Shown here one piece after another: positions 6,747 to 26,933 of a DNA stretch of 43,445 bases. The stretch is taken from positions 1-43,445 of the forward strand of contig CAIWKE010000025.1 of assembly GCA_903913215.1 (NCBI GenBank), given 5' to 3'. The first letter of the stretch is position 1; every line of letters begins with the position of its first letter. This DNA is from an uncultured Holophagaceae bacterium (lineage in GTDB: Bacteria; Acidobacteriota; Holophagae; Holophagales; Holophagaceae). The notes under the pieces were generated by a model. That model made no database searches, had not been told where the DNA came from, and saw only the letters and a program-made list of their open reading frames with translations. A program made the position numbers and the translations under genes.

Positions 6747-8288
6747 ATGATCTCGCCCTCGATCCTCCAGAACCTCTACAGTTTTGGTTCTCTGCGTAAT
6801 GACGCGGATGGCGTGGAGCTGAGCTTGAAGAATCGCCTGAGTGACCTCGTCCTCAACCGGCTCGTACAAGTGCAGATTGGCCCCCTGGAACTGGGGGCCG
6901 AGGACGTGGAAATCGAACTTGGGGATGGGCAGTGGCGTCGCGCCGCTGAAGTCACCAAGGAGGGCCCCAGAGCATTCCCCTTGAAGCAGGTGGCCCACCT
7001 CCGCGCCCCGGGGAAGAAGGTCGACGAGGGACGGCACGCCATCCGGATCGCTGTGGAAGTCGAAGGCCTGGGAGCACTCAGCTTCCAGGTGGAGGACCAG
7101 ACGGCCCCCCATGCCGACTGCCCCGCCTCCCTACCCCGGTCCATCGACGACAACTACTCCCCGGGCATCATCGCCGCCCGCCGGGCCTTCGTGGAGGGAG
7201 CCACCGGGGTCACCCTGGAGCACACCAGCCAGTATTCCTTCGATCCCAGGCTGACCCAAGGCAATATCGAGAACTTCACCGGCGTGGTCCAGATGCCCCT
7301 TGGCTTTGCAGGGCCGCTGCTCATCAAGGGCGAACACGCCAAGGGTGAGTTCCTGATTCCCCTGGCCACCACCGAAGGCACGCTGGTGGCCTCGTACAAC
7401 CGCGGCATGAAGGTGCTCAACCTGTCTGGCGGCGTAACCTGCACAGTCCAGAGCGACCACATGCAGCGCGCCCCGGTATTCACATTCGACAGCGCCCGGG
7501 AGGCTCTGGCCTTTCGGCGGTGGGTGGGAGAGCACCTGACGGAGATCCGGGACGTGGCGGAAGCCACCACGGGGAGCGGCAAGCTGAGCTACATCGACAC
7601 CTATCTGGCAAGCAAGTTCGCCTACCTCCGCTTCAACTTCAAGACCGGTGATGCGGCGGGTCAGAACATGGTCGGACGGGCCACCCTCGCCGCCTGCAAC
7701 TGGATCCTGGAACGCAACACGCAGAGCGTCCGGCGCTTCTACCTGGAATCAAATCTCGCCACGGACAAGAAGGCCTCCCATATGAATCGGCTGCACACGC
7801 GAGGCAAGCGGGTCACCGCCGAGTGCGTCATCAAGCGGGAGGTGCTGCTCGCGGTGATGCACGCCGACCCCGAAAGCCTCGCCTACCACTGGGGCGTGGC
7901 CAACGTGGGTTCCATCATCTCCGGCGCCGACAACAACGGGCTCCACAGTCCCAACGCCCTCGCGGCCATGTTCATCGCCACCGGCCAGGACGTCGCGAAC
8001 CTGGCGGAAGGCTCCTCGGGAATCCTCTACGCGGAACTGACCCCCGAGAAGGACCTCTACATGTCGATCACGATTCCCTCCCTCATCGTGGCCACCCACG
8101 GTGGGGGCACAGGCCTGCCCACCCAGAAAGAGTGCCTGCAGTTACTTGGCTGTTTCGGCACGGGTAAGGTCTACAAGCTCGCCGAGATCATCGCCGGGGT
8201 GGTCCTTGCGGGAGAAGTCTCCCTCGGCGCCGCCATTTCCTCCCTGGAGTGGGTGTCCTCCCATGAGCGATACGGACGCAACCGCTAG
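6747..8288 (+). CDS. hmgA: Hydroxymethylglutaryl-CoA reductase, class I
   Basis: 513 residues. The reaction is reduction of HMG-CoA to mevalonate with NADPH. The catalytic domain, from about residue 125, shows IENFTGVVQMPLGFAGPLLI, LATTEGTLVASYNRG (Glu210), KTGDAAGQNMVGRAT, ATDKKASHMNRLHTRGKRV (Lys341), ATGQDVANLAEGSSG (Asp415) and a final SSHERYGRNR (His506). These are the four catalytic residues of class I enzymes. The first 120 residues or so form a soluble extension rich in beta-type sequence (LYSFGSLRNDADGVELSLKNR) instead of the membrane anchor of eukaryotic enzymes. Its role is unknown to me. No other mevalonate-pathway gene is in the window. The 3' end overlaps the next gene by 26 bases, so the two are probably translationally coupled. 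Confidence 0.92.
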   Translation: MISPSILQNLYSFGSLRNDADGVELSLKNRLSDLVLNRLVQVQIGPLELGAEDVEIELGDGQWRRAAEVTKEGPRAFPLKQVAHLRAPGKKVDEGRHAIRIAVEVEGLGALSFQVEDQTAPHADCPASLPRSIDDNYSPGIIAARRAFVEGATGVTLEHTSQYSFDPRLTQGNIENFTGVVQMPLGFAGPLLIKGEHAKGEFLIPLATTEGTLVASYNRGMKVLNLSGGVTCTVQSDHMQRAPVFTFDSAREALAFRRWVGEHLTEIRDVAEATTGSGKLSYIDTYLASKFAYLRFNFKTGDAAGQNMVGRATLAACNWILERNTQSVRRFYLESNLATDKKASHMNRLHTRGKRVTAECVIKREVLLAVMHADPESLAYHWGVANVGSIISGADNNGLHSPNALAAMFIATGQDVANLAEGSSGILYAELTPEKDLYMSITIPSLIVATHGGGTGLPTQKECLQLLGCFGTGKVYKLAEIIAGVVLAGEVSLGAAISSLEWVSSHERYGRNR

Positions 8289-10035
8289 GCCCCACTCGGG
8301 TGCGAGAGCCCACCCGCCCAAGGCGGGACGGGATCCTAAGGTCCGGGTCAGCCGCTCCGTCAGCGTCGAGGCCCCCGACCCGGCGGCCGAAATCCGCGCC
8401 CGGGGCTTCGAGGTCAGCCAGACCTGGCGGCCGCAGGGGCTGACCCGGCGGCTCCTGGTGACCTGTCGGCACTTCCTCGGCCTGCTCTTTGGCGCGCTCG
8501 CCTATCAGGTGTCCTCAGGCCCCCTGGCAGCAGGCCCCAAGGGCGGGCGCTACCTGGCCCTCTGGCTTGCGGCACTGCCCGGGCGGATCTTCGTCAACCG
8601 GACCTTGCGCAGGGAACCCCTCCCGATCCAACTGCGTCGTCGGCTTGAGCGCCTCGGCCCCACCTACATCAAGCTCGGTCAGATCCTCAGTCTGCGCGAG
8701 GATCTGCTGCCCAAGCCGATCACCGACGAACTAAAGCACCTCCTCAACCGCCTGCCCGTGGTCCCCTTGGATGTGCTGAAGGGCATCATCGAAAAGGACC
8801 TCAAGCGGCCCGTGGGCCAGATGTTCCTGTCCATCGACCCCGTCCCGCTCGGTTCAGCCTCCATCGGCCAGACCCACAAGGCCGTCACCGTGGACGGGGA
8901 CCTCGTGCTCCTGAAGGTGGTCAAGCCCGGCATCCGCCAGACGCTGCAGCGGGACGCGATCCTGCTGCGGATGCTGGGGGCGGTGACCCAGCTCATCATC
9001 CCCAGGTACCAACCCCGCCAGATCGTGAACGAGTTCTGCACCTACACCCTGAGGGAGGTGGACCTACAGCTGGAGGGAGAGAATGCCGAGATCTTCGCCG
9101 GGCATTTCGCGGATGTTCCCGATGTGGTCTTCCCCCGCATCTACCGGGAGTTCAGCGGGCACAGTGTCCTGTGCATGGAGTATTTCGATGGCCTGAGCCC
9201 GGACTCTCCAGAAGCCCTGCAGCTTCCCGAGGAGGAGAGGAAGCACCTGACTGACCTGGGCGCCATGGCCATCATGCGGATGCTGTACCGCGACGGGTTC
9301 TTCCACGCCGACCTGCACCCGGGCAACCTCCTCATCCTGCCGGGGCCCAAGATCGGTTTCATCGACCTGGGCATGGTGGGCCGCCTGGACGAAGATCTGC
9401 GCCGGTCCCTGATGTACTACTACTTCGCCCTGGTCATGGGCGATGGCGAGAACGCCGCCCGCTATCTGACGGCCATCGCCAGCCCCGGGCCAGGAGCTGA
9501 CCCCAACGCCTTCCGCCGGGACGCCGTGGACATCGCCCATCGCTGGAAGCGGGCCGCCAATTTCACGGACTTCTCTCTCGGTCAGCTCATCCTGCAATCC
9601 CTGTCCAGGGGTGCCGAGCACCGGATGTATTTCCCCGTGGAGCTGGTCCTGATGGTGAAGGCTCTGGTCACGTTCGAAGGTGTCGGCAACGTCCTGCTCC
9701 CCGGTTTCGACGTGGCTGAGGTCAGCAGGCGGCATATCCGCGCTCTCTTCATCGAACAGTTCAGCCCCGTCCGGCTCATCAGCGAAGGACTTCGGGGCGT
9801 GCCCGAGCTGGTGGACGCGATCGCCAAAATGCCCCTGCTCATCACGGATGGATTACGGGTCCTGGAGAATTACGCCCGGCAACCCCAGGAACCGCCGCTG
9901 ACTGGATTGCGTGGAACGCTCATCGCCGGATGCTGCCTGGTGGCGGGCGCCGTGGCCATGGGGTTCAAGACGCCCTGGCCCCTGTGGTCCGGCCTCTTCC
10001 TCCTCGCCTTGGTGCTTGCCCTCCGCAAGAGATGA
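8263..10035 (+). CDS. ABC1/UbiB-family atypical kinase, membrane-associated
   Basis: About 590 residues. The ABC1 kinase-like domain shows GPTYIKLGQILSLREDLLP (the KxGQ motif at 137-140), VPLGSASIGQTHKA (the nucleotide-loop region near 195-207), FFHADLHPGNLLIL (catalytic-loop Asp350) and IGFIDLGMVGRLDE (Asp368, the DFG-like site). The C-terminus has two hydrophobic segments (about 550-588) ending in RKR, so it is probably anchored in the inner membrane. Family members support quinone biosynthesis and prenyl-lipid handling; here menaquinone or another isoprenoid lipid is the likely context, since HMG-CoA reductase is directly upstream. ATG 8263 lies inside the end of the reductase gene, and a further upstream start would be unconserved. 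The WS/DGAT gene starts four bases after its stop. Confidence 0.88.
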   Translation: MSDTDATARPHSGARAHPPKAGRDPKVRVSRSVSVEAPDPAAEIRARGFEVSQTWRPQGLTRRLLVTCRHFLGLLFGALAYQVSSGPLAAGPKGGRYLALWLAALPGRIFVNRTLRREPLPIQLRRRLERLGPTYIKLGQILSLREDLLPKPITDELKHLLNRLPVVPLDVLKGIIEKDLKRPVGQMFLSIDPVPLGSASIGQTHKAVTVDGDLVLLKVVKPGIRQTLQRDAILLRMLGAVTQLIIPRYQPRQIVNEFCTYTLREVDLQLEGENAEIFAGHFADVPDVVFPRIYREFSGHSVLCMEYFDGLSPDSPEALQLPEEERKHLTDLGAMAIMRMLYRDGFFHADLHPGNLLILPGPKIGFIDLGMVGRLDEDLRRSLMYYYFALVMGDGENAARYLTAIASPGPGADPNAFRRDAVDIAHRWKRAANFTDFSLGQLILQSLSRGAEHRMYFPVELVLMVKALVTFEGVGNVLLPGFDVAEVSRRHIRALFIEQFSPVRLISEGLRGVPELVDAIAKMPLLITDGLRVLENYARQPQEPPLTGLRGTLIAGCCLVAGAVAMGFKTPWPLWSGLFLLALVLALRKR

Positions 10036-10039
10036 CCTC

Positions 10040-11329
10040 ATGCGCGAACCCCTCGCCCCCAATGACGCGATCTGGCTTCAGGATTCCGCCACGAACCTGA
10101 TGGTGATCAACGCGATCATCATCACCGACCGCCTGGACCACCACACCTTGAGATCCGCCTTTCAGCAGCGGATCTTCGAAGGGCCCGACGCCACCCGCTT
10201 TGAACGCCTGCGCTGCCGTATCACCGGGAAGGGCCACCGCCGCTATTGGGAACCAGACCCGGACTTCCACCTCGCCCGCCACATCTTCCCGACTCGGGCC
10301 AAGAACCTTCACAGCATCGAGGCCATCCAGGAATATGTGGGACGCGAGGCGAGCCACAAGCTGGACCGGGATCGTCCCCAGTGGGAGATCCAGGTCATTG
10401 AAGCCTTTGATCAGGACGCCACCGCCCTCCTGGTCCGCATCCACCACAGCATCGCCGACGGCGAGGCCCTGGTGTGCCTGCTGTTCACGCTGATGGATCG
10501 CTCCTGTGCCCCCGAGAGCAGTCTGCCCCATGGGGGCGGGCAGCCCCCGCTGGAGGACAGCTGGATGGGGCGGTTCCTGCGCACGGCCGCCATTCCCCTG
10601 GCAGCGCCGGGCATCCTGCTGCGCCGCCTGACCTGGTTCCCCGACCGCAGCCACATGCATGGGCCGCCACTGTCCGGAACCAAGCGGGTGGCCTGGACCA
10701 GGCCCCTGGACCTGGACGTGCTCAAGAAGGCCAAACATCACATTGGAGCCACGGTGAATGATGTCCTCATGGCCTCCGTTGCCGGTGCCTTCTCCAACTA
10801 CCTGACCCACCATGGGGACAAGGCCCCGCCCCGGTTCCTCATCTCCATGCCGGTGAACGTGCGGAACCCGGCCGACCCCTTGCGCTGCGACAACCATTTC
10901 GCGCCGGTGCCGCTCGAACTGCCCGCAGGGCCCTGCGCACTCTCCCATCGCATCCTGGCCGTCAAGGGAAGGATGGACGAGTTGAAGCATTCACCAGCGC
11001 CTCAGGTGATCTTCGAGCTGCAGAGGGTGCTCCTGACCCTGCTCCCCAAGGCCGTGAGCCGGGGCCTCATCGACTTCCTCGCAAACAAGTGCACAGCTGT
11101 CGTCACCAACATCACCGGTCCCACCCATGACATCGCCCTCGAAGGACGCCGGGTGCGGTCCATCCATTTCTGGGTGCCTCAGCGGGCCAATATCGGGATC
11201 GGCATCTCCATGCTGAGCTTCGCCGGGAAGGTCCAGCTTGGCGTCATCACCGACGACGCCCTTGTGCCAGACCCCGCAGCCCTCATCCAGGCCTTTGAGG
11301 ATGAGTTCGAAGCCATAAAAACACTCTGA
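10040..11329 (+). CDS. Wax ester synthase/diacylglycerol O-acyltransferase (WS/DGAT)
   Basis: 429 residues. It shows the acyltransferase signature HHSIADG (135-141) of the HHxxxDG type, an N-terminal PLAPNDAIWLQDS as in wax-ester synthases, ATVNDVLMASVAGAF in the middle, and VVTNITGPTHDIALEGRRV with VPQRANIGIGISMLSFAGK in the C-terminal DUF1298 half. It joins acyl-CoA to a fatty alcohol or diacylglycerol to make neutral storage lipid at the membrane face. The start ATG follows AAGAGA and sits four bases after the kinase stop. It converges on the patatin gene with a 12-base gap. Which acceptor it uses cannot be told from sequence. Confidence 0.9.
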   Translation: MREPLAPNDAIWLQDSATNLMVINAIIITDRLDHHTLRSAFQQRIFEGPDATRFERLRCRITGKGHRRYWEPDPDFHLARHIFPTRAKNLHSIEAIQEYVGREASHKLDRDRPQWEIQVIEAFDQDATALLVRIHHSIADGEALVCLLFTLMDRSCAPESSLPHGGGQPPLEDSWMGRFLRTAAIPLAAPGILLRRLTWFPDRSHMHGPPLSGTKRVAWTRPLDLDVLKKAKHHIGATVNDVLMASVAGAFSNYLTHHGDKAPPRFLISMPVNVRNPADPLRCDNHFAPVPLELPAGPCALSHRILAVKGRMDELKHSPAPQVIFELQRVLLTLLPKAVSRGLIDFLANKCTAVVTNITGPTHDIALEGRRVRSIHFWVPQRANIGIGISMLSFAGKVQLGVITDDALVPDPAALIQAFEDEFEAIKTL

Positions 11330-11341
11330 GGGATCAGCGAC

Positions 11342-12553
11342 CTAGCCGAGGCTGGCCTCGAGGGCCTGGAGGGTGGCCTCCAGGCGGTCGACCAAGTCCA
11401 TCGGCTGCCCACTGCCACGGCCGGGAGCCTCCAGACAATCCCACACCCTGCGGCTGGGATCGGCAAGGACATCCAGTCGGAGCGAGAGCCCATGCTTCTC
11501 GAAGGTGGGCCCCAGCACCTCGCGCCGGTTCCAAAGGTCCATGCGGGTCTGTTCGTACCCGATCTCACAGACCTTGTGGCGGGAATGGAGCCGGAAGAGA
11601 TTCGCGAACAGTCGATGTTCGGTCGGCTCCGGTCGGAAGAGCATCAAATCCGACCCAGGGTGGGTCTGGGCGGCCCGCTCCATGCCGAGGCTGACCCTCG
11701 AATTGATGAGGATCCGGAAGCTCTGGGAGAGAACGGCCGGCAGGCCACCTTTCTGCATCGCCCGGCGCCCCAACGCCTCACGGGCATCCTCCGAGCCCGT
11801 GTTCATGGGCACCAGGGGATTCACACACAACAACAGCTCTGCGCCGTTTTCCAAGGCGACGGAAGCGTGGAGCGTCTTGAGCAGAACCCCATCCACGCAG
11901 ACCCGCCCTTCGACGTCGACGGGCTGGTAGATGCCGGGGACAGCCGTGCTCGCCTGGACCGCGCGTGAGATGGGCACATGGTCCAGCCCCTGCTTGCCGA
12001 AGACCACGGCCCCTCCGGTTTCCAGATTCGTGGACACCGCAAAGAATTTTCGCGGAAGCTTGCGGAAGTCGTCGGTTCTGCCTCGCTGGGAGAAGGTTGC
12101 GTGCAGGTAGGCCCGGATCGGCTCATTGTCGAAGAGGCACACGGGCAGCGAAGGGCCAAGCCCCTCCAGTCCGCCGATGAAGGATGGGTTCTCTGGGCCC
12201 GTCAGGAACTGGACCAGGGCGTCCCCCGCCACCCAGGGGAACTGGAGGCCCCGCCTCCGCATCTCCTTGAAAGCCGGCACGAAGAAGATGGCCGGGTCAA
12301 AGAGAACCCCTTTGCCCTGGGGGGAATGCAGACCTTGGATCAGCTCCGACACGGTGATCCCGTTGACGAGGTGGGAGCCGACGAAGGCGCCGGCGCTCAC
12401 CCCGACGTAGACCTCGAGCCGGTTCAGGTCGAGTCCCTCGATGGACTCCTCAAGGGCCCGGAGGGCGCCTACCTCATAGACACCCCCCAGCATGCCTCCA
12501 GAGGCCAAGGCGAGGCCGATCCGTCGGGGTTTCCCGCGGTGCGACGCAGCCAT
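11342..12553 (-). CDS. Patatin-like phospholipase
   Basis: 403 residues with an N-terminal patatin domain. The oxyanion loop is SGGMLGGVYEVG (18-29), the nucleophile elbow is GVSAG (Ser53) and the catalytic aspartate is in CVDGVLLKTLHA (Asp221-Gly222), so the Ser-Asp dyad is intact. No signal peptide or membrane segment is seen, which suggests a cytoplasmic or granule-surface hydrolase. It follows the phasin gene by seven bases in the same transcript and faces the WS/DGAT gene. I therefore infer a role in turning over storage lipid or polyester. The last 150 residues or so are family-variable. Confidence 0.9.
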   Translation of the reverse strand: MAASHRGKPRRIGLALASGGMLGGVYEVGALRALEESIEGLDLNRLEVYVGVSAGAFVGSHLVNGITVSELIQGLHSPQGKGVLFDPAIFFVPAFKEMRRRGLQFPWVAGDALVQFLTGPENPSFIGGLEGLGPSLPVCLFDNEPIRAYLHATFSQRGRTDDFRKLPRKFFAVSTNLETGGAVVFGKQGLDHVPISRAVQASTAVPGIYQPVDVEGRVCVDGVLLKTLHASVALENGAELLLCVNPLVPMNTGSEDAREALGRRAMQKGGLPAVLSQSFRILINSRVSLGMERAAQTHPGSDLMLFRPEPTEHRLFANLFRLHSRHKVCEIGYEQTRMDLWNRREVLGPTFEKHGLSLRLDVLADPSRRVWDCLEAPGRGSGQPMDLVDRLEATLQALEASLG

Positions 12554-12560
12554 GGGGCAT

Positions 12561-12968
12561 TCAGGCCCGGGCGGTCCGGGTCCTGGCCTTCGGCTTGGCC
12601 TGGCCCGCAGACCTGGTCTGGTTCACGATCTTGGTGAGCTCTTCCACGCGGTGCGTGAGCTTGACGATTTCCGCGCGGGAAGGCACGCCCAGCCGGTGCA
12701 TGGCGGCGGCCAGACCATCCTCGATGGGCGAGGTGACCTTGGTCAGGACGTTCTTGGCGTCGCCCTGCAGGCCCTGGACCCGCTCGGTCAGGTTGGCCAT
12801 CCACTCCTTGCTGGCCTCCTCCTGTTCACCACCCTTCTCAACGAGGTGCTTGAACAGCTTGGCGCCTTCTTCACCGGCAAGGTTGTAAGCACCGAGCCCG
12901 GCGAGCCAGATGTCATGGGCGGACTCCTTCAGCCCAGTTGCAGTGGTTGTCTTCTTCTTGGTTGCCAT
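12561..12968 (-). CDS. Phasin-like polyhydroxyalkanoate granule-associated protein
   Basis: 135 residues. It starts with MATKKKTTT, followed by an amphipathic helical stretch SAHDIWLAGLGAYNLAGEEG and then EKGGEQEEASKEWMANLTERVQG. A coiled coil (EIVKLTHRVEELTKIVNQ) and a lysine/arginine-rich tail (PKARTRTARA) complete it. This is the layout of PhaF/PhaI-type phasins, which coat polyester granules; basic tails in PhaF can bind DNA, and here the tail is short. The start is set by an AAGGAG-AAAGGA ribosome site. PhaR lies just upstream and patatin just downstream. No PHA synthase is in the window. Confidence 0.8.
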   Translation of the reverse strand: MATKKKTTTATGLKESAHDIWLAGLGAYNLAGEEGAKLFKHLVEKGGEQEEASKEWMANLTERVQGLQGDAKNVLTKVTSPIEDGLAAAMHRLGVPSRAEIVKLTHRVEELTKIVNQTRSAGQAKPKARTRTARA

Positions 12969-13011
12969 GTCCTTTCTCCTTATTGCCGGCCCCGGGCCGG
13001 GAAGGTTGGGG

Positions 13012-13482
13012 TTAGATGCCCGCCTTGCGAGAGGCGCGGGAAGGGCTGGGGTTCTTGCGCATCGAACTGCGTGCTTCCAACTCGGCCAAGGTGATCTCCA
13101 GTTCAGCGAGGCGGCGGTGGAGCAGGTCCAGGTCCTCCTGGGCGGCGCCAAGGTGGACGAGCCGCTCCATGGAACCGCGGACCACGCCGTCCACCTTCGC
13201 CTGCACCTGCTCCAGGCCTTCGGTGACCGCCCGGCTGCCCAGCCGGATCACCTGGTGCAGGAACGCACCGGAGAGCAGCGAGTGACCACGCCGCTGGTCC
13301 TCGTAGATGCTCTGGGTGAGGGTCTGCGCGGTCACGTCCTCACCGGTGACACTGTCCAGGATCTGCAGCTCCTGGCCAGCCCGGATCCAGGCCGAGAGCT
13401 CCTCCAGGGAGACATACCGGCTCTCCTCGGTGTCGTAGAGCTTGCGGCTCGAGCCGCCGTAGCGTTTGATGAGGCGGATCAT
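13012..13482 (-). CDS. phaR: Polyhydroxyalkanoate synthesis repressor PhaR-type regulator
   Basis: 156 residues. The N-terminus MIRLIKRYGGSSRKLYDTEE, followed by SRYVSLEELSAWIRAGQEL, is the PhaR/PhbF DNA-binding domain. The adjacent part (QILDSVTGEDVTAQTLTQSI) is the PHB-accumulation regulatory domain. The C-terminal half is a coiled coil with a basic end. The family binds both polyester granules and phasin-gene promoters, releasing the promoter when granules form. The start at 13482 is taken because conservation begins here and a purine-rich AGGGGG lies upstream. It is the gene before the phasin, as expected for a local autoregulated pair. Confidence 0.9.
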   Translation of the reverse strand: MIRLIKRYGGSSRKLYDTEESRYVSLEELSAWIRAGQELQILDSVTGEDVTAQTLTQSIYEDQRRGHSLLSGAFLHQVIRLGSRAVTEGLEQVQAKVDGVVRGSMERLVHLGAAQEDLDLLHRRLAELEITLAELEARSSMRKNPSPSRASRKAGI

Positions 13483-13514
13483 TCCCAGCCCCCTTACGAA
13501 CCCCAATTTACCGC

Positions 13515-13554
13515 ATTGCGGCAATGGCGCCAGGGGTCCTGGCCACCAATTGGT
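13515..13554. promoter_or_regulatory. Cluster of three palindromes upstream of phaR
   Basis: The 89-base gap between the Get3-like ATPase stop and phaR holds three palindromes: ATTGC-G-GCAAT (13515-13525), GCCAGG-GGT-CCTGGC (13529-13543) and ACCAATTGGT (13545-13554). None is followed by a T run, so termination is unlikely. A PhaR or other repressor operator is plausible because PhaR proteins bind short TGC/GCA-containing palindromes, but this is inference. Confidence 0.35.
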
Positions 13555-13571
13555 AATTTTTTTCTAATCGC

Positions 13572-14621
13572 CTATTTAATTGGTTTTGATTTCATCAACC
13601 GCTCCGAAAACTGGCCCAGAGACTTCAGGTCAGCCGGTGGGAGCGGCTCAAGGGCCACGGGGATGATCGCCTGGGCGCCGGGGAACAGGCTGCTGAGCAG
13701 CTTCAGCCCTCGTTGATCCCGCTCTGCCAGGAAGTGCAGCAGGGTCATACCCGGGGACTTGCCGGCATTCGGGTCTGGTGTCGGATGCACCTGGTTCACC
13801 AGGATGGGGCCCAGGTGATGACCGGTCTCCGCGAGTTTGCGCAGGAAGAACATCGCGTCCGGTACCCGATCCGCCCCGGGCCCCGCGACCAGGAGGAACT
13901 GGGTATCACTGGACAGGAGCAGATTCCGCACCTCAAGCGCCCTGCTGCGGAACCCTTCAAATAGGGGCGCGAAGGCCCGGATGAACTCCACTACATCCAG
14001 CACGAACTGGCGGCCGATGATGCGATCCGACAGCTCCAGCGCCCCTTTGGCCACCACCCGGAAGGCCAGGCTCTTCTTTCCTTTCCCGTCCCACCAGGGG
14101 TCCAGGGCAAACCGGATGGCCTTGCTGTCCACCAGGTTCATCATGCGGTCGGGTGCCTGGAGAAACTCCATGGCCTGAGTGGTGGGCGGGGTATCCAGGA
14201 TGACGCGATCGTAACGGCCCGAGGCCTGCATCTCGAAGAGCCGTTCCATGGCCATGTACTCAAGGATGCCCGAGAGGTTGCCTGCCATGTCCCGATAGAA
14301 GCGGTTCGAGAAGATCCGCTTGGCGGCTGCCGCATCAGGTGCATAGGTCCGGATCAGCCGATCGAAGGTGCGCTTTGCGTCGAGGAGCGCAGCGTCCAGG
14401 AAGCCCGGGCCGTCCTCGATCACACGGATGGGTTTGTCCTTCGCCGAGGCCCCCACACCGAGGGCATCCTTCAGGCGCAGGGAGGGATCGAAGGTCATCA
14501 CCAACGTTCGCCGCCCCTGCTTCGCCGAGGCCAAGGCGAGGGCCGCCGCCAGGGTGGTCTTGCCGACCCCACCAGCGCCCACCACCACGATGAGCCGTCC
14601 CTCCAACAGGCCGCCGCTCAT
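13572..14621 (-). CDS. Get3/ArsA-like ATPase, partner lacking the signature lysine
   Basis: 349 residues of the Get3/ArsA/MinD-type P-loop family. The P-loop reads VVVGAGGVGKTTLA: the second residue of the usual GKGGVGKT motif, the signature lysine that reaches across the dimer, is alanine (Ala16), while Lys21 remains. Other features are LVMTFDPSLRLKDALGVG, ILDTPPTTQAMEFLQAPDRM (switch II-like DTPPT) and VAGPGADRVPDAMFFLRKL. No arsenic genes are present, so arsenite pumping is unlikely. Its start overlaps the stop of the partner ATPase by four bases (ATGA), which suggests fixed stoichiometry. Paired, unequal ATPases of this kind occur in actinobacteria (BagA/BagB) and other phyla, where they probably act as heterodimers. 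Confidence 0.85.
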   Translation of the reverse strand: MSGGLLEGRLIVVVGAGGVGKTTLAAALALASAKQGRRTLVMTFDPSLRLKDALGVGASAKDKPIRVIEDGPGFLDAALLDAKRTFDRLIRTYAPDAAAAKRIFSNRFYRDMAGNLSGILEYMAMERLFEMQASGRYDRVILDTPPTTQAMEFLQAPDRMMNLVDSKAIRFALDPWWDGKGKKSLAFRVVAKGALELSDRIIGRQFVLDVVEFIRAFAPLFEGFRSRALEVRNLLLSSDTQFLLVAGPGADRVPDAMFFLRKLAETGHHLGPILVNQVHPTPDPNAGKSPGMTLLHFLAERDQRGLKLLSSLFPGAQAIIPVALEPLPPADLKSLGQFSERLMKSKPIK

Positions 14622-15490
14622 GGATCGGCCTCGCTGAGCAACCGGGCCAGCTCGGCCACCAGTGTGGGCCCTCGCTCCAGCGGCAGCAGGGGCAGGTGGC
14701 AGAGGGGGCCATCCCACGCCTCCATGAGGCGGGCGAGTTCGCTCTCATTCAGCTGATGCCGGGCCCGCAGGAAATCCGTGCTGCGTCCCGGTGGGGTAGC
14801 CTCGTCCACAGATGGATACAGGCCATTCGCCACGATCAGGGCGGGCCTGATGCCCAGCCTCGCCTGCAGCAGGTCGATTAGCTCCAGGGTCTCCTGGACT
14901 GGCATCTCCTCCGCCAGGGTCGCGAGCACCACCCCGCAGCGCGAAGGATCCGCCAGGAAGGCGGCCAGATCCGCAGCCAGGGCTCCCAGTTGGCCGCCCT
15001 CCGCAGCCTTCGCCAACAGCCCCGGTGCTGCCAGCATGGTGGCGCCGTGCCCAGTCGCGGGGGCATCCAGGATCACCAAGTCGACCTTGGGACGTCCGCT
15101 GTGCAGCATCCGGTAGGCATGCCCCAGCAGGGCCGTCTCCTTCAGCCCCGGGGCGCCCTCGATGAACTGATGGAAGGCCGTGCTCTCGGTGATCTTCCGA
15201 GCCAGGTAGGCGATGGAGACCTTGTCCCGCACCATCTCTTCGATGACCGCACCAGGTTGGAGATTCTGGATGAACAGGCGTGGCCCCGCCTGCACGATCT
15301 CACCGCCAGAGGGGTCGGTGCCGAGGACCTGGTGCAGGCTCTCCCGGGGATCCACTTCCAGCAGCAGCACTCGTTTGCCACGTCCCGCCAGCAATCGGCC
15401 CAGCACAGCGGTGAGCGTGGTCTTGCCGACCCCGCCCTTTCCGGTCACCACCAACAACTGCCATTCAGCGAGCCGAGCCAAGGCGGACAT
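14618..15490 (-). CDS. Get3/ArsA-like ATPase with complete deviant Walker A motif
   Basis: 290 residues. It carries LLVVTGKGGVGKTTLTAVLG, a full deviant Walker A with signature Lys18 and Lys23, VLLLEVDPRESLHQVLG, and VILDAPATGHGATMLAAPGL (the DAPATGH switch II of Get3/ArsA). It is shorter than eukaryotic Get3 and has no CxxC zinc motif, so a strict tail-anchor targeting role cannot be claimed. It is the first gene of the minus-strand run that continues to the second ATPase, phaR, phasin and patatin. With its partner it could deliver or remodel hydrophobic proteins or granule-surface proteins; this is inference from context only. Confidence 0.87.
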   Translation of the reverse strand: MSALARLAEWQLLVVTGKGGVGKTTLTAVLGRLLAGRGKRVLLLEVDPRESLHQVLGTDPSGGEIVQAGPRLFIQNLQPGAVIEEMVRDKVSIAYLARKITESTAFHQFIEGAPGLKETALLGHAYRMLHSGRPKVDLVILDAPATGHGATMLAAPGLLAKAAEGGQLGALAADLAAFLADPSRCGVVLATLAEEMPVQETLELIDLLQARLGIRPALIVANGLYPSVDEATPPGRSTDFLRARHQLNESELARLMEAWDGPLCHLPLLPLERGPTLVAELARLLSEADP

Positions 15491-16567: not shown

Positions 16568-17926
16568 ATGTCCAAGCTGGTCCGCATCGCCAATGGCCAA
16601 GGCTTCTGGGGCGACAGCATTGACGCGCCGGTGCGCCTGGTGGAAGCCGGAGGCATCGACTACCTCACGCTGGATTACCTGGCGGAGGTGACCCTCTCCA
16701 TCATGCAGAAGCAGCGGCGCAAGAACCCCAAGCTGGGCTATGCCACGGATTTTGTGGACCTCATGCGGCGAGTGCTGCCCCTGCTCAAGGAGAAGGGCAT
16801 TCGCGTGGTGGCCAATGCCGGGGGCGTGAACCCCGAGGCCTGCCGCAGCGCCGTCCTGGCCGTGGCCCGGGAGCTGGGTGTGCAAGACCTGAAGATCGCC
16901 ACCGTGACGGGCGATGATGTGCTGGCCCGGCTGCCGGAGTTCCAGGCCGCGGGCCTGAAGCTGGCCAACATGGACACGGGCGAGGGCCTCTTCGACGCAC
17001 CCAGGGAGATCCTCAGCGCCAATGTCTACCTGCAGACCCAGGCCATGGTGGAGGCCCTGGACACCGGTGCGGACATCGTCCTGACGGGGCGCTGCACGGA
17101 CCCGGGCCTTACGCTGGCCCCCCTCATCCACGAGTTCCGCTGGGACGCGGAGGACTGGGATCGCCTGGCAGCGGGCACCATCGCGGGCCACATCCTGGAG
17201 TGCGGGGCCCAGTGCACCGGCGGCAACTTCAGCCGCTGGTGGGAAGTGCCCGAGCTCTGGAAGGTGGGCTACCCCATCGCCGAGTGCAGTGAGGACGGCA
17301 CTTTCGTCATCACCAAACATGCGGGCACGGGCGGCCTGGTCAGCGTTGACACGGTCAGCGAGCAGCTGGTCTACGAGATGGGCGACCCGCAGAACTACCT
17401 CACGCCCGATGTCGTGGCGGACTTCACCTCCGTCCGCCTGGAGCAGGCGGGCCCGGACCGGGTGCGGGTATGGGGCATCCAGGGCCGGCCCCGCACCCCG
17501 TTCCTCAAGGTGAGCGGCGCCTACCTCAAGGGCCACAAGGCCACGGGCCAGCTGGTCATCAGCGGGCCCCGGGCCTTGGAGAAGGCCCGACTCTGCGCGG
17601 ACATCGTCTGGCAGCGACTGAAGGCGGCGGGCTTCGAATACGAGCACACGGACGCTGAATACCTCGGGTCCAGCACGGTCCATGCAGGCATCGCCCCGGC
17701 ACCGGAAGATCCAGCCGAGATCGTGCTGCGGCTCAGCGTGAAGGATGGGGACCGCGCCAAAGTGGAACGCTTCGGCCGGGAACTGGCCCCCCTGGTCACG
17801 GCCGGCCCGGCGGGGGTCACAGGCTTTGCCGGGGGCCGACCCAAAGCGCAGGAAATTGTGGCCTACTGGCCCGCCCTGCTGCCCCGGGAGTGGGTCCACT
17901 GGCAGGTGAGTACCGAAGTGAGTTGA
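16568..17926 (+). CDS. AtuA-like acyclic terpene utilization family protein (DUF1446)
   Basis: 452 residues spanning the DUF1446/AtuA domain. Hallmarks are VRIANGQGFWGDSIDAPVRL at the start, GIDYLTLDYLAEVTLSIM, VVANAGGVNPEACR, ANVYLQTQAMVEALDTGADI, LTGRCTDPGLTLAPLIHEF and LECGAQCTGGNFS. Family members occur in the citronellol/geraniol degradation gene set and elsewhere, but their biochemistry is not settled. Here none of the partner genes (geranyl-CoA carboxylase, AtuC/F) is present, so terpene degradation should not be assumed. Start ATG 16568 begins at the conserved N-terminus. Confidence 0.88.
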   Translation: MSKLVRIANGQGFWGDSIDAPVRLVEAGGIDYLTLDYLAEVTLSIMQKQRRKNPKLGYATDFVDLMRRVLPLLKEKGIRVVANAGGVNPEACRSAVLAVARELGVQDLKIATVTGDDVLARLPEFQAAGLKLANMDTGEGLFDAPREILSANVYLQTQAMVEALDTGADIVLTGRCTDPGLTLAPLIHEFRWDAEDWDRLAAGTIAGHILECGAQCTGGNFSRWWEVPELWKVGYPIAECSEDGTFVITKHAGTGGLVSVDTVSEQLVYEMGDPQNYLTPDVVADFTSVRLEQAGPDRVRVWGIQGRPRTPFLKVSGAYLKGHKATGQLVISGPRALEKARLCADIVWQRLKAAGFEYEHTDAEYLGSSTVHAGIAPAPEDPAEIVLRLSVKDGDRAKVERFGRELAPLVTAGPAGVTGFAGGRPKAQEIVAYWPALLPREWVHWQVSTEVS

Positions 17927-22053: not shown

Positions 22054-23892
22054 TCAGTGGTGCATGCCCCTCGCGTGGTAGTGGGTGTGCAGCAGGTGGT
22101 GGGACTTCTCGCTGAGGGGGGCACCCAGGAAGGCGCTGTAGAGGGCCGCCATGGCGGGGTTCTCGTGGGACATGCGCACGGGCTTGCCCTCGTCCTCGGC
22201 AAAGATGGCCTTCATGCGCTCGCGCCGAACATCGTTGGTCGTGAAGCGGGGCTGGCCGCCCCCGCCGATGCAGCCTCCGGGACAGGCCATCACCTCGATG
22301 AAGTGGTAGCTCTTCTCTCCAGACCGGACCTGCTCCATCAGCCTTTCGGCATTGGCCAGGCCACTGGCCACGGCCACCCGCAGGGTCTGGCCCGCCAGGA
22401 AGGACCACTCGGGCACGGCTGTGGGGATGGTGATGGCCATCTCCTTGACCCCCTCCAGCCCTGCGATGGGCCCCACATGCAGCTGCTCAAAGGGGAAGGG
22501 CTGGCCCGTCACCAGGCACCATACCGTGCGCAGGGCGGCCTCCATGACCCCGCCGGTGTTGGCGAAGATGTCCGCAGCCCCGGAGCTGGCGCCCATGGGC
22601 TGGTCCATGGCCTCGTCGGGCAGGGCCACGAAGTCCAGTCCCGACTGGGTGATCATCCGCCCCAGCTCCCGGGTGGTGAGCACCGCGTCCACATCCTGGA
22701 AACCGCTGGCGTTCATCTCCGGCCGCTGGGCCTCGAATTTCTTGGCGGTGCAGGGCATGACGGAGACCACGTAGAGGTCCTCTGGCGGCCAGCCCATGGT
22801 CTCGGCGAAGTAGGTCTTGGCCAGGGCGCCGAACATCTGCTGGGGGGACTTGGCGGTCGAGAGGTTCGGCAGCAGCTCCTCGTGGTAGTGCTCCGCGAAC
22901 TTGACCCAGCCGGGACAACAGCTGGTGTACTGGGGCAGCGCCGCGGGCTTCTGCTCCAACAGGGCGGCCTTGAGCCGCATGAGCAGCTCGCTGCCTTCCT
23001 CCAGGATGGTGAGGTCCGCCGTGAAGTTGGTATCGAAGACCCGCTCGAAGCCCAGGCGACGCAGGGCGGCGACCATCTTGCCCGTGACCCGGCTGCCCGG
23101 GGGCATGCCGAAGCACTCACCGAGGCCAGCTCGGATGGCTGGCGCCGTCTGCACAATGACGTGCTTGGTGGGGTCCGCCAGGGCGGCCCAGACTCGCTCG
23201 ATGTGGTCCTTTTCGGTGATGGCCGCCGTGGGGCAGACCGCCACACACTGGCCGCACTGCACACAGGCCACGCGATCCAGGTTCTGGCCGAAGGCCGGGG
23301 CCGCCACGCACTCGAAGCCGCGGTCCTGGGCCCAGAGGGCGCCCGTGGCCTGGATGTCGCTGCAGACCGTGATGCAGCGGCGACACATGATGCACTTGGC
23401 CGAGTCGCGGTCCAGGGCCGGGGTGCTCTGGTCGATGATCCGGTGGTGCTTGGCCCCCACGAAGTGCAGTTCGCGGATATCGAGATCCCGGGCCTCGGCC
23501 AGGAACTCACAGTCGTGGGACCGCGCGCAGGTCTGGCAGTCGCCCTCATGGTCCGAGAGCAGGAGCTCCATGACCGTGCGCCGGGCCGCGCGCACTTTGG
23601 GCGTGGCCGTGCGGATCTTCAGGCCTTCGGAGACCGGCATGGAACAGGAGGCCTGCAGCGCCTTGGCGCCCTCCACCTCCACCAGACAGACGCGGCAGCC
23701 ACCCACCACGTGGACCCCCTCCAGGTAGCAGAGGGACGGGATGCGGATGCCAGCCTGGCGGGCCGCGTTGAGCACCGAGGTGCCTTCGGGCACCACCACC
23801 TGGCACTGATCAATGGTGAGCTTGACCATGGTGGTCGCGGGGTCATGGGTCGGGTGGGATGCCGAGGTTGGATGAACGGTAGTGGGTTGCAT
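22054..23892 (-). CDS. hydA: [FeFe] hydrogenase catalytic subunit HydA (HndD type)
   Basis: 612 residues. N-terminal [2Fe-2S] domain: Cys55, Cys66, Cys69, Cys83. His-ligated [4Fe-4S]: His115, Cys119, Cys122, Cys128. Two ferredoxin clusters: Cys167-170-173-177 and Cys210-213-216-220. H-cluster motifs: TSCCPGWVKFAE (Cys325 as proton relay, Cys326 as ligand), MPCTAKKFEAQRPE (Cys381) and MACPGGCIGGGGQP (Cys537, Cys541). All H-cluster ligands are present, so it should evolve or take up H2. The small-subunit-like C-terminus ends in SEKSHHLLHTHYHARG. ATG 23892 overlaps the hydB stop by one base and follows GGAGG. The maturases HydE, HydF and HydG are not in the window. Confidence 0.96.
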   Translation of the reverse strand: MQPTTVHPTSASHPTHDPATTMVKLTIDQCQVVVPEGTSVLNAARQAGIRIPSLCYLEGVHVVGGCRVCLVEVEGAKALQASCSMPVSEGLKIRTATPKVRAARRTVMELLLSDHEGDCQTCARSHDCEFLAEARDLDIRELHFVGAKHHRIIDQSTPALDRDSAKCIMCRRCITVCSDIQATGALWAQDRGFECVAAPAFGQNLDRVACVQCGQCVAVCPTAAITEKDHIERVWAALADPTKHVIVQTAPAIRAGLGECFGMPPGSRVTGKMVAALRRLGFERVFDTNFTADLTILEEGSELLMRLKAALLEQKPAALPQYTSCCPGWVKFAEHYHEELLPNLSTAKSPQQMFGALAKTYFAETMGWPPEDLYVVSVMPCTAKKFEAQRPEMNASGFQDVDAVLTTRELGRMITQSGLDFVALPDEAMDQPMGASSGAADIFANTGGVMEAALRTVWCLVTGQPFPFEQLHVGPIAGLEGVKEMAITIPTAVPEWSFLAGQTLRVAVASGLANAERLMEQVRSGEKSYHFIEVMACPGGCIGGGGQPRFTTNDVRRERMKAIFAEDEGKPVRMSHENPAMAALYSAFLGAPLSEKSHHLLHTHYHARGMHH

Positions 23893-26800
23893 CAGTCCTC
23901 CGATTCCCGGTAGTCACAGCGAAGGCAGCGGCGGGCTTCGCACAGCGCCACCTGGCCTGTCCAGGACTGCTCCACTTCGCTGAAGTTCTCGCGGCGGCGC
24001 TGCACGGGCAGCAGCTCCATGTGGGCGCGGGGGTAGCTGACGGGCTCGGCCTCGGGATCGAAGGGCACATCGCAGACCCGTTCCCGCCGCCAGAAGCTGT
24101 GCTCGGAGCCCGTGAAGCGGGCGTCCATGGCCACGGCGGCTCGTTCCCCTGCGGCCACGGCCTCGACCACGGAGGCCGGGCCGGAAACAGCATCACCGCC
24201 ACTGAACAGCCAGTCCAAGCTTGTGCGGCCGGTGTGGGGATCCGCCGCGATGAACCCCTCGCGGGTGAGGGGCACCTTCAGACCTCCGAGCAGCTGCGTG
24301 GCGTCCAGTCGCTGCCCGATGGCCGTGATGACCTGGTCGGCCTGGATCACGAAGGGCGGTTCCGGGAGGGCGGTGGGGCGTCGCCGGCCACTGCGGTCAA
24401 ACTCGCCCAGGGTCATGGCCTGGCAGGAGACACCGGTCACCAGGCCCTCCCAGGCCAGGATCTCCAGGGGGGCCGTGAGCACGCGCAGCTTCACGCCCTC
24501 GTTCTCCGCCTCTTCGATCTCCTCGGCGTAGGCAGGCATTTCCTCACGGGTGCGTCGGTAGAGCACGGTCACAGAGTCGGCTCCCAGGCGGATGGCAGTG
24601 CGGGCTGTGTCGATGGCCGCATTGCCGCCGCCGATGACCACCACCTGCTGACCCACGGGCACCGAGCCCCGGATGTTGTAGTCGCGCAGGAAGCGGATTG
24701 CGTCCTCCACGCCCACGGCTTCTTCACCCGGAACGCCCAGGTGCTGACCCAGGGGCGCCCCCACGCCCAGGAAGATGGCTTCGTAACCCTGGCTGCGGAG
24801 TCCTTCCAGAGTGAAGTCCCGGCCCAGGCGGCTATTAGTGGTGATGTGCACCCCCATGCGCTCGATCATGCGCACTTCCAGGGAGAGGATCTCCCGTGGC
24901 AGTCGGTAGGCGGGGATGGTCTGCACGGGCATGCCACCGGGCCTGGACTCGGCCTCGAAGACCTCAGGCCGGTAGCCCAGACGGGCCAGGAAGTACGCGC
25001 AGGAGAGGCCCGCCGGGCCAGCCCCAATGATGGCCACCTTCCGCTGCGCGTTGACCGCGTTGGTACGGATCTCCGGGTGCTGCATGGTGGCCTCCTCGTC
25101 CACCATGTAGCGCTTGATACCCCGGATGGAGAGGGCCTCGTCCACCCCGGCCCGACGGCACTTGTCCTCGCAGGTGTGGAAGCAGACGCGGGCGCAGACG
25201 GCCGCGAAGGGATTGCGCTCCCTGTGCAGCATAAGGGCCTCGGCGATGCGGTTCTGGCCCACGAGGGCGATGAAGCCCGGCACGTCCACATTGGCCGGGC
25301 AGGCGCTCTGGCAGGGAGCCCGCACGAGGCCAGGGCATACGCCAGCGGCGCAGCGCTTCTCCCGGATGTGGGCCTCATACTCGGCCCGGAAGTGGCGGAT
25401 GGTGGAAAGCACAGGATTGGGCGCGGTTTGGCCCAAGCCGCAGAGGGAGGTCTCGCGAATGATGCGACCCAGTTCCTCCAGCTTCTCGATGTCGCCCTCT
25501 TCACCCTTCCCGGTGCAGATGCGATCCACGATCTCCAGCATGCGCCGGGTGCCGATGCGGCAGGGTGGGCACTTGCCGCAGGACTCGTCCTGCACGAAGT
25601 CCAGGAAGAAGCGCGCCATGTCCACCATGCAGGTGTCCTCATCCATGACGATGAGGCCACCGGAGCCCATGATGGCGCCCAGGTCCTGCAGGGCCTCGTA
25701 GTCCACGGGCACGCTCAGGTGCTGCGCGGGGATGCATCCGCCCGAGGGGCCACCCAGCTGCGCGGCCTTGAATTTCTTGCCTCCGGGGATGCCGCCCCCC
25801 AGTTCGTAGATGATGTCCCCCAAGGGCGTGCCGATGGGGATCTCCACCAGACCCGTGTTGCGGATGGTGCCCGCCAGGGCGAAGACCTTGGTCCCCTTGG
25901 ACAGCTCGGTGCCATAGCCCGCATACCAGGCCGCGCCCCGCAGGATGATGGCGGGGATGGTGGCGTAGGTCTCCACGTTGTTCAGCATGCTGGGCTTGCC
26001 CCAGAGCCCGGCCTGCGCCGGGAAGGGCGGTCGGGGGCGTGGCTCGCCGCGCTTCCCTTCGATGGAGGTCATGAGGGCCGTCTCCTCGCCGCAGACGAAG
26101 GCGCCAGAGCCCATGCGGATTTCCAGGTCGAAGGCGAAGCCGCTGCCCAGGATGTCGGTCCCAAGAAAGCCCCGCTGCCGGGCCTGCTCGATGGCGATGC
26201 CCAGGCGCTGCACGGCCAGGGGGTACTCGGCCCGGACATAGGCGTAACCCTGGCTGGCCCCGATGGCATAGCCCGCGATGACCATGGCCTCGATGACGCT
26301 GTGGGGATCCCCCTCCAGCAGGCTGCGATCCATGAAGGCGCCGGGGTCCCCCTCGTCGCCGTTGCAGAGCACGTATTTGATGTCGCCGGGCGAGCGTCGG
26401 CACAGCTCCCACTTGAGGCCCGTGGGGAAGCCCGCGCCGCCCCGCCCACGCAGGCCCGAGGCCTTGATCTCGGCGATGACCTCGTCGCTCGACAGGCTGC
26501 CCAGGACCTTGTGCAGGGCCTCGTAGCCCTGATGTTCGATGGCATCGTCGATGCTGAGGGGATCGATGATGCCGCAGTTCCGCAGAGCGATCTTCACCTG
26601 GCGGTGGAAGAAGGGGTTGTCCTGCACCCGGGGCATGGCCACGCCGCTCTCGGCCTTGTGGCAGACCAGCCGCTCGATCACCTCACCCCGCTCCACGGTG
26701 CGGTCGATGAGCTCGGCCACGTCGCCCAGGGCGAGGCCCTGGTAGAGGATGCCCTCGGGTTCACAGCGCAGCACCGGCCCCCCGGCGCAGGGCCCCAGAC

Positions 26801-26933
26801 AGCCGGTCTCCACAAGCCGCACATCCAGTCCCCGGCGGGCCAGCTCCTCCCGCAGCGCCGCCCCCAGCGGCCCTGAACCCGCGGCCACACAGCCAGCGCC
26901 AGAACAAAGGTGAAGGGCCTGGATCTGCGTCAT
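23892..26933 (-). CDS. hydB: HydB/NuoF-like flavoprotein fused to an NfnB/GltD-like FAD oxidoreductase
   Basis: 1013 residues, about 400 more than usual HydB. Residues 1-520: thioredoxin-like [2Fe-2S] (Cys10, 15, 45, 49), FMN/NADH part (GLRGRGGAGFPTGLKWE at 160-176, NGDEGDPGAF at 191-200), SLBB, and the NuoF [4Fe-4S] motif SCGKCPPC with Cys498. Residues 526-1013: two cysteine groups (Cys528, 533, 541, 545 and Cys580, 584, 588, 592) as in GltD/NfnB/DPD-type domains, an FAD Rossmann motif (VAIIGAGPAGLSCAYFLARL near 633-652), an NAD(P)H motif (VVVIGGGNAAIDTARTA) and LFSGGDAVSGPASVVEAV. The usual C-terminal ferredoxin clusters of HydB are not seen; the GltD-like part may replace them. A complex with two pyridine-nucleotide sites is implied. 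ATG 26933 with GGGGAGG is preferred to GTG 26951. Confidence 0.92.
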   Translation of the reverse strand: MTQIQALHLCSGAGCVAAGSGPLGAALREELARRGLDVRLVETGCLGPCAGGPVLRCEPEGILYQGLALGDVAELIDRTVERGEVIERLVCHKAESGVAMPRVQDNPFFHRQVKIALRNCGIIDPLSIDDAIEHQGYEALHKVLGSLSSDEVIAEIKASGLRGRGGAGFPTGLKWELCRRSPGDIKYVLCNGDEGDPGAFMDRSLLEGDPHSVIEAMVIAGYAIGASQGYAYVRAEYPLAVQRLGIAIEQARQRGFLGTDILGSGFAFDLEIRMGSGAFVCGEETALMTSIEGKRGEPRPRPPFPAQAGLWGKPSMLNNVETYATIPAIILRGAAWYAGYGTELSKGTKVFALAGTIRNTGLVEIPIGTPLGDIIYELGGGIPGGKKFKAAQLGGPSGGCIPAQHLSVPVDYEALQDLGAIMGSGGLIVMDEDTCMVDMARFFLDFVQDESCGKCPPCRIGTRRMLEIVDRICTGKGEEGDIEKLEELGRIIRETSLCGLGQTAPNPVLSTIRHFRAEYEAHIREKRCAAGVCPGLVRAPCQSACPANVDVPGFIALVGQNRIAEALMLHRERNPFAAVCARVCFHTCEDKCRRAGVDEALSIRGIKRYMVDEEATMQHPEIRTNAVNAQRKVAIIGAGPAGLSCAYFLARLGYRPEVFEAESRPGGMPVQTIPAYRLPREILSLEVRMIERMGVHITTNSRLGRDFTLEGLRSQGYEAIFLGVGAPLGQHLGVPGEEAVGVEDAIRFLRDYNIRGSVPVGQQVVVIGGGNAAIDTARTAIRLGADSVTVLYRRTREEMPAYAEEIEEAENEGVKLRVLTAPLEILAWEGLVTGVSCQAMTLGEFDRSGRRRPTALPEPPFVIQADQVITAIGQRLDATQLLGGLKVPLTREGFIAADPHTGRTSLDWLFSGGDAVSGPASVVEAVAAGERAAVAMDARFTGSEHSFWRRERVCDVPFDPEAEPVSYPRAHMELLPVQRRRENFSEVEQSWTGQVALCEARRCLRCDYRESED

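Follow-up and report, generated by a model that had tools for sequence, protein, structure and literature searches.

The window analysed here, a contig of 43,445 nucleotides from an uncultured Holophagaceae bacterium of the phylum Acidobacteriota (GenBank CAIWKE010000025.1), contains at positions 6747–15490 a block in which a plus-strand arm, HMG-CoA reductase (HMGR), an ABC1 kinase and a member of the wax ester synthase/diacylglycerol acyltransferase family (WS/DGAT), converges on a minus-strand arm, read along the window as patatin, phasin, PhaR, BagB-like ATPase and BagA-like ATPase. The two arms are separated by only 12 bases, between the end of the WS/DGAT gene (11329) and the 3' end of the patatin gene (11342). 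All eight genes listed in a first-pass annotation of the window, and the 12-base convergence, were recovered at the positions given there, and the families were matched by profiles. Our analysis suggests, with a probability of roughly 0.72, that the block constitutes a system for neutral-lipid inclusions of the wax ester/triacylglycerol type, which uses accessory proteins of polyhydroxyalkanoate (PHA) granules without PHA. The observations that carry this reading are the identities of the genes, their conserved linkage, the lack of a detectable PHA synthase (PhaC), the association with acyltransferases, and a conserved palindrome upstream of PhaR.

In the plus-strand arm, the NADPH-type HMGR (6747–8288) matches PF00368 (3.3e-121) and TIGR00533 (3e-102, under the cut-off of the latter model). 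The gene of the ABC1/UbiB-family atypical kinase (8263–10035; PF03109, 9e-61) probably starts at 8263, the profile scan having been run from 8287, and that of WS/DGAT (10040–11329) probably at 10040, with the scan run from 10034. The WS/DGAT protein matches PF03007 and PF06974 above the gathering cut-offs and misses the cut-off of TIGR02946 (256.9 of 309.95 bits); it possesses the sequence HHSIADG, of the HHxxxDG type that is found in 30/30 WS/DGAT relatives scoring >400 bits. In the minus-strand arm, the patatin-like lipase (11342–12553; PF01734, 4e-20) has S53 (of the GxSxG motif) and D221, both unchanged across 20 aligned relatives. The start of the phasin (12561–12968; PF05597, 2e-25) was corrected to 12968, and that of PhaR (13012–13482) to 13482 instead of the open reading frame (ORF) start at 13524, since both the upstream regions of relatives and the translation point there. 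PhaR contains the PHB_acc_N DNA-binding domain (PF07879, 4e-20, above cut-off); the NCBIfam PhaR equivalog cut-off is missed (75.9 of 109 bits), as is that of TIGR01837 for the phasin (72 bits). The structural model of the phasin is entirely helical, with a predicted TM-score (pTM) of just 0.35, and its amphipathicity is modest: the hydrophobic moment of residues 12–45 is 0.30, where shuffled sequences average 0.14 and 2.4% of them are as high, and three of the five stretches are no better than shuffles. Upstream of PhaR lies the palindrome CCGCATTGCGG (13511–13521), a predicted PhaR operator and the sole exact copy in the window, followed by the BagB-like (13572–14621) and BagA-like (14618–15490) ATPases. 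PhaR, the PF05597 phasin and WS/DGAT each have a single match in the whole genome, all within the block.

Co-occurrence of PhaR, phasin and WS/DGAT

Among 41 relatives, PhaR and the phasin occupy the identical 15 genomes, 14 of which also have a strong WS/DGAT match, compared to none of the other 26 (one of these shows a trace at 3e-4). The exception, G003, is a fragmented assembly, 85% complete. Within the genus, PhaR and phasin are present in 8 of 25 genomes and a true BagB in 7; in the eighth member with PhaR and phasin (G021) PhaR is located at a contig end. This distribution indicates that the three genes were gained or lost jointly. The same association is seen in a sample of 396 genomes of the phylum, tallied by genome and by genus: PhaR is present in 57/58 genomes with WS/DGAT (the exception, G358, is an assembly 74% complete) vs 28/338 others, and in 36/37 genera with WS/DGAT vs 24/173 without. 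Of the 28 genomes with PhaC in this sample, 27 have PhaR, as expected. The 85 genomes with PhaR comprise 40 with WS/DGAT only, 10 with PhaC only, 17 with both and 18 with neither, although one of the latter (G245) does have PhaC according to the profile A1 described below. BagB and the PhaC_N domain co-occur in 0/35 genomes, which is not significant alone (p = 0.16).

These tallies bear on the explanation that phasin and PhaR act on a target other than storage, e.g. a membrane or nucleoid surface, or in a chaperone-like manner, and that the neighbourhood reflects lipid or membrane housekeeping. A review portrays phasins as multipurpose amphipathic helical proteins (PMC5658603; here and below, statements attributed to publications refer to the portions of their text that were available), and HMGR, ABC1 and BagAB are by family not storage genes. 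However, PhaR in 57 of the 58 WS/DGAT genomes and its joint absence with the partner genes in congeners are hard to explain without a link to storage, and two acyltransferase families recur beside the patatin. We consider such a non-storage role unlikely.

Search for PHA synthases

The PhaC_N model (PF07167) yields no match in the window's genome, an assembly 95% complete, nor in any of the 41 relatives; the class III PhaC model likewise yields none in the window's genome and one weak match (3e-4) in one of the 41. PF07167 alone is too insensitive for this phylum, since a class III-like PhaC of G245 escaped it, and we therefore built a phylum-specific profile (A1) from 11 PhaCs of the phylum and searched it in 76 chosen genomes at E 1e-10. 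This profile detected the G245 protein and was positive in 8/8 controls, of which five had contributed rows to it and G245, G182 and G131 had not. It found no PhaC in the window's genome, and it matched 0/47 genomes with block genes and 0/21 other PhaR genomes. A PHA synthase elsewhere in the window's genome was thus rejected as far as tested with the three models. Among the traits of PHA granules sought in the window, PhaR, a phasin and a palindrome resembling the PhaR box are present, and PhaC was not found.

An unrecognised polyester synthase might still make PHA, in which case the patatin would be a PHA depolymerase acting inside the cell, the role that has been proposed for Slr0060 of Synechocystis. 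PhaR and phasin are indeed PHA-granule proteins, and the Synechocystis phasin–patatin operon has been assigned to polyhydroxybutyrate (PHB), Slr0060 having been isolated with PHB granules (PMC7203880). Besides the negative results of the three models in this genome and of the profile in the 47, what speaks against this possibility is the absence of PhaC from the conserved loci described in the next section, in which the recurrent partner is WS/DGAT or a PlsC-type acyltransferase. It appears to us quite improbable.

Conserved linkage and exchange of acyltransferases

The gene order of the window is retained without insert in the sibling locus L032 and in L066 from another genus, and with inserts between patatin and WS/DGAT in L033, L034, L035 and L065; contig ends interrupt the block in L031, L036 and G021. 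When the phylum sample is combined with the close relatives, 42 loci from 15 family labels have PhaR and patatin on the same strand no more than 3 kb apart, and in the sequence covered these loci include phasin in 40, BagB in 22, ABC1 in 15, HMGR in 11 and WS/DGAT in 9. A patatin-only scan of named genomes gave at least 592 pattern matches, and among the best 80 of 514 relatives a phasin (within 2 kb) was found at 64 loci, PhaR at 54, BagA or BagB at 33, WS/DGAT at 24, a PlsC-type acyltransferase at 13 and either acyltransferase at 37, with PhaC near none of these 80. This set extends beyond the phylum. Its Gemmatimonadota loci have phasin in 7/7, PhaR in 5/7, a Bag gene in 3/7 and an acyltransferase in 6/7, and one of them (L180) contains BagB, PhaR, phasin, patatin, WS/DGAT, ABC1 and HMGR ordered as in the window. 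The single Planctomycetota locus (L197) possesses BagA, BagB, PhaR, phasin, patatin, ABC1 and HMGR, and the 17 Pseudomonadota loci have phasin in 12, WS/DGAT in 11, both in 7 and PhaR in none. Carriers available in culture include Sulfidibacter corallicola M133, with the order PhaR–phasin–phasin–patatin, and Rhodoblastus acidophilus DSM 142, Crenobacter caeni and Caenimonas sedimenti, with phasin–patatin and a WS/DGAT gene no more than 4 kb away. After removal of 25 duplicates, 73 loci with PhaR and patatin on the same strand within 3.5 kb remained, of which 67 have phasin, 40 a Bag gene, 29 ABC1, 19 HMGR, 14 WS/DGAT and none PhaC. HMGR adjoins ABC1 also in Gemmatimonadota and in other families of the phylum.

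The spot occupied by WS/DGAT in the window is taken at several loci of other lineages by an acyltransferase of the PF01553 (PlsC) type, which forms the widest cluster among the recurrent unknown neighbours. In families f3, f26, f34, f56, f6 and f86 this gene lies beyond the 3' end of the patatin and on the other strand, at 18 to 243 bp from the patatin in L100, L102, L090, L091, L092 and L112, at a longer distance in L069, L152, L159 and L076, and with the two frames touching in L080. Ten block genomes lack a detected WS/DGAT (G092, G096, G102, G176, G205, G342, G364, G366, G373 and G403), and eight of them have the PlsC-type gene at the locus. A structural model of the L102 protein (mean predicted local distance difference test, pLDDT, of 80) has the Thermotoga PlsC 5kym as its best match (E 9e-6), with a TM-score of 0.36 by query and 0.54 by target. 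The f34 copies are divergent, with 31–34% identity to that of L102 and without its C-terminal part.

Several siblings differ from the window in the segment between patatin and WS/DGAT. L035 (14518–15402) and L034 (15508–16401), the two loci covered by the Pfam run, contain there a ParA/MinD-like ATPase (AAA_31, CbiA) that is absent from the window, in L035 beside an unknown small ORF (14042–14488); a signal resembling it occurs in L036, L065 and L099. This ATPase is possibly an inclusion-positioning system. L034 (from sibling G015) also has a second WS/DGAT directly after the patatin (12328–13671; 34% identity to the window's), and the WS/DGAT match in L033 (G013:C31:10002–11273) contains one in-frame TAA, due to either a broken gene or a sequence error.

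Predicted operator and phylogeny of PhaR

Published PhaR boxes include TGCRNYGCASMA in Bradyrhizobium (PMC6201568), CTGCN3GCAG in R. sphaeroides (as cited in PMC3206438 and PMC12542648) and the core YGCRNYGCR in S. meliloti (PMC12542648). The canonical box TGCRNYGCA is found upstream of many PhaC-linked and f10 PhaRs but hardly of the patatin-linked ones. Its scarcity there led us to a palindrome and 7-mer search upstream of patatin-linked PhaRs, which yielded CCGCANTGCGG. In 2.34 Mb of deduplicated loci this sequence has 73 exact copies. Sixty of these, distributed over 47 loci, precede PhaR at a distance of no more than 300 bp, and 8 are located away from block genes. As compared by Fisher tests, CCGCANTGCGG is present at 45/72 patatin-linked PhaRs vs 0/21 linked to PhaC (11) or WS/DGAT alone (10), and a second form, TGCANTGCA, at 0/72 patatin-linked, 9/21 PhaC- or WS/DGAT-only-linked and 2/26 other PhaRs, including 6/11 of the PhaC-linked PhaRs of the phylum. 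Both forms fit the degenerate S. meliloti consensus (PMC12542648). The window's palindrome lies 28 bases before the start codon of PhaR and has a weight matrix score of 26.8, compared to 9.8 for the next best site in the window. Outside the discovery set, PhaR-type sites were found at BagA, BagB and a stand-alone phasin: the weight matrix gave upstream sites in 7 rows for BagA, 4 for BagB, 4 for phasin and 1 for patatin with doubles kept, and removal of doubles by eye left BagA sites from 5 genomes and BagB sites from 3.

In a PhaR tree calculated from 137 columns, a supported group (99/97) comprises 42 of the 49 patatin-linked PhaRs included, among them the window's, together with six from other settings and no PhaC-linked one. 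Ten of the 11 PhaC-linked PhaRs and all 10 WS/DGAT-only-linked PhaRs are mixed in a separate, weakly supported part (83/21).

Further arrangements were seen outside the PhaR–patatin pairs. Three PhaR-type palindromes precede a stand-alone phasin in L236 (13398–13471), and one precedes a patatin without adjoining PhaR in L237 (9933). At loci that have no patatin, a PhaR of another kind is separated from WS/DGAT by 0.6 to 8 kb: L116, L123 and L140 (family f10), L106, L139 and L149 (f12), L137 and L154 (f22), and L143 and L144 (f70); the f10 members have TGCANTGCA upstream, and the Acidobacteriota PhaC profile found no PhaC in the genomes carrying these loci.

The two ArsA/Get3-fold ATPases

Both ATPases match PF02374 (3e-22 and 4e-25). 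For the BagB-like protein the best model is NF053621 (9e-69; 232 of 521 bits, equivalog cut-off missed) and the best solved relative is Rv3680 (6bs3_B, 7e-53). For the BagA-like protein the best NCBIfam model, NF053622 (2e-25; 90 of 400 bits, equivalog cut-off missed), is narrowly ahead of a general GET3/ArsA model (3e-24), and the best solved relative is ArsA (9nbl, 1e-22), ahead of 6bs3_A (1e-16). By these scores, the predicted resemblance to mycobacterial BagA/BagB is clear for BagB and weak for BagA. Like the M. tuberculosis pair (Rv3679/Rv3680; PDB 6BS3–6BS5), they are adjacent ArsA/Get3-fold ATPases with Walker A motifs, but unlike it they fall under the equivalog cut-offs, the BagA-like member has ArsA as its best solved relative, and the pair adjoins PhaR–phasin–patatin. 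A CxxC motif is a feature of Get3/TRC40 proteins. The assignment as Get3 proper was rejected, with 66 and 86 of 135 bits for TIGR00345 and CxxC in neither sequence. The delivery of proteins by these ATPases to the surface of the inclusion, as suggested in the first-pass annotation, is not supported, given the missed Get3 cut-off, the lack of CxxC, and the lack of a Bag gene in 33/73 deduplicated PhaR–patatin loci in the sequence covered.

It is also conceivable that PhaR–phasin–patatin and HMGR–ABC1–acyltransferase are independent modules, adjacent by descent, with BagAB as a passenger that has e.g. a glycerol-related stress role. According to published work, mycobacterial bagAB protects cells from the toxic effects of glycerol metabolism and of nitric oxide (PMC10597346) and is tied to streptomycin survival (PMC12216072); BagAB and PhaR are on different contigs in G270, G317, G263, G398, G378 and G227, and the synthetic arm lacks PhaR-type sites upstream in our searches. 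On the other hand, the two arms remain neighbours in Gemmatimonadota, in one Planctomycetota locus and across several families of the phylum, and PhaR-type sites are located upstream of BagA (7 rows, 5 genomes) and BagB (4 rows, 3 genomes). We regard independence of the modules as possible but doubtful.

Functional interpretation

Returning to the inclusion system favoured here, WS/DGAT would make the stored lipid, a role perhaps taken in other lineages by the PlsC-fold acyltransferase, with a putative contribution from HMGR and ABC1. The phasin would bind lipid and coat the droplet via its helices, and the patatin would hydrolyse the stored lipid as its substrate. PhaR would bind CCGCANTGCGG in its promoter and repress its own operon, PhaR–phasin–patatin, until the growing lipid surface draws it off the DNA, as PHB does with canonical PhaR. 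According to the canonical model, sequestration of PhaR by PHB derepresses phasin and depolymerase (PMC12542648). BagA and BagB may be an accessory ATPase pair, with PhaR-type sites upstream in some lineages.

The first-pass annotation had proposed that the block may build, coat and consume one neutral-lipid inclusion without a PHA synthase. Apart from the delivery role of the ATPases, the core of this proposal withstood both observations that it had named as refuting, a linkage not conserved in relatives and a phaC elsewhere: the PhaR–patatin linkage is kept in 15 family labels and beyond the phylum, and the lack of phaC extends from the block to the genome and to the 47 genomes with block genes. 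The storage idea is strengthened by the exchange of acyltransferases and by the PhaR operator. Our data speak for a module of phasin and patatin, under the control of PhaR, that serves neutral-lipid inclusions and is older and wider than could be seen from the window. As similar pairings recur in several bacterial phyla, phasin and PhaR probably coat and regulate oil droplets in these phyla.

A number of points weigh against this interpretation. The storage role is predicted here from the genes alone, and the phasins and PhaR in the literature found come from PHA systems. In Synechocystis, the phasin–patatin operon slr0058–slr0061 is assigned to PHB, and mutation of the phasin gene raises the number of PHB granules, although GFP-Slr0058 showed no co-localisation with these granules (PMC7203880). 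PhaC is present in 17/58 WS/DGAT genomes vs 11/338 others in the phylum sample, mostly in family f47. Phasin is found in just 12 of the 17 Pseudomonadota patatin loci, and phasin (with PhaR) in 1/4 Balneolales/Rhodothermota-type loci among the best 80 of 514. As to the acyltransferases, G102 and G364 lack both WS/DGAT and the PlsC-type gene in the sequence covered, and G026, G133 and G372 have the PlsC-type gene at the locus and WS/DGAT elsewhere, so that the former is no strict replacement for the latter. As to the operator, 27/72 patatin-linked PhaRs are without an exact CCGCANTGCGG and 2/26 PhaRs in other settings have it, and with two mismatches allowed there is no excess of palindromes in the window (51 vs 54 expected). 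With the weight matrix, PhaR-type sites were absent upstream of HMGR, ABC1 and WS/DGAT and also of the PlsC-type gene, which makes PhaR most likely a regulator of its own operon and not of the synthetic arm. Finally, patatin-linked PhaRs of f34, f39 and f86 are placed outside the main clade, some on long branches, and a single origin of the patatin-linked PhaRs is thus not established.

Comparison with known systems reveals a mixture of shared and distinct features. The block resembles the PHB carbonosome in the DNA-binding domain of PhaR, the phasin and the PhaR-box-type palindrome in the PhaR promoter, but differs from it in the lack of a detected PHA synthase, in its partners (WS/DGAT or a PlsC-type acyltransferase, and patatin) and in its PhaR site, CCGCANTGCGG instead of the TGCANTGCA of PhaC-linked PhaRs. 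With slr0058–slr0061 (PhaF-like phasin and patatin Slr0060) it shares the presence of phasin and patatin in one operon; this likeness is one of gene content, and Synechocystis, in contrast, makes PHB, PhaR being mentioned nowhere in the available text of PMC7203880. The WS/DGAT domains and the HHxxxDG motif link the window to wax ester/triacylglycerol synthesis, which is predicted here. A 2023 survey of WS/DGAT contexts in metagenomes recorded one Pseudomonadota scaffold with a putative phasin and two further scaffolds with a PHA-related gene, and called neutral-lipid accumulation and storage in Acidobacteriota unexplored; it read the phasin as PHA metabolism, unlike our interpretation, and PhaR, patatin and BagAB were not found as fixed partners in its available text (PMC10351704). 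The titles and abstract openings found for phasin with wax ester synthase or patatin, a scope that leaves out most subscription journals, do not describe a PhaR–phasin–WS/DGAT block. A heterologous phasin is said to bind triacylglycerol bodies in Rhodococcus.

The boldest reading, which we put forward tentatively and on the basis of gene families and analogy, is that PhaR and phasins are not intrinsically PHA proteins and instead sense and coat hydrophobic inclusions in general, and that one line of them might run a dedicated lipid droplet in Acidobacteriota, in Gemmatimonadota, in one lineage of Planctomycetota and, where PhaR does not adjoin, in some Pseudomonadota. This droplet would be a bacterial counterpart of the plastoglobule, the core of which would include isoprenoid esters from the HMGR–ABC1–acyltransferase arm, with BagAB as an ATP-driven loading factor. 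Chloroplast plastoglobules are lipid bodies discussed in the literature together with ABC1 kinases and ester synthases, and the likeness would be one of analogy alone. Two genes from BagA, at 16568–17926, the window has a gene of the AtuA (acyclic terpene utilisation) family with 87–89% identity in three siblings, which may or may not be connected to HMGR and isoprenoids.

Farther along, on the minus strand at 22054–27448, the window contains a large subunit of [FeFe] hydrogenase, a NuoF-type subunit fused to a pyridine nucleotide-disulphide oxidoreductase domain, and a thioredoxin-like ferredoxin, a set that looks like an electron-bifurcating hydrogenase.

The occurrence of a phasin with PhaR is commonly taken to indicate PHA storage. 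Among the genomes of this study that reading often fails, and the two proteins track neutral-lipid acyltransferases. If our interpretation is true, it would assign to the lipid droplets of bacteria from several little-studied phyla a named coat protein, together with a lipase and a repressor that senses the droplet surface and has a predicted operator. The sensing of hydrophobic inclusions by PhaR would then become directly testable.

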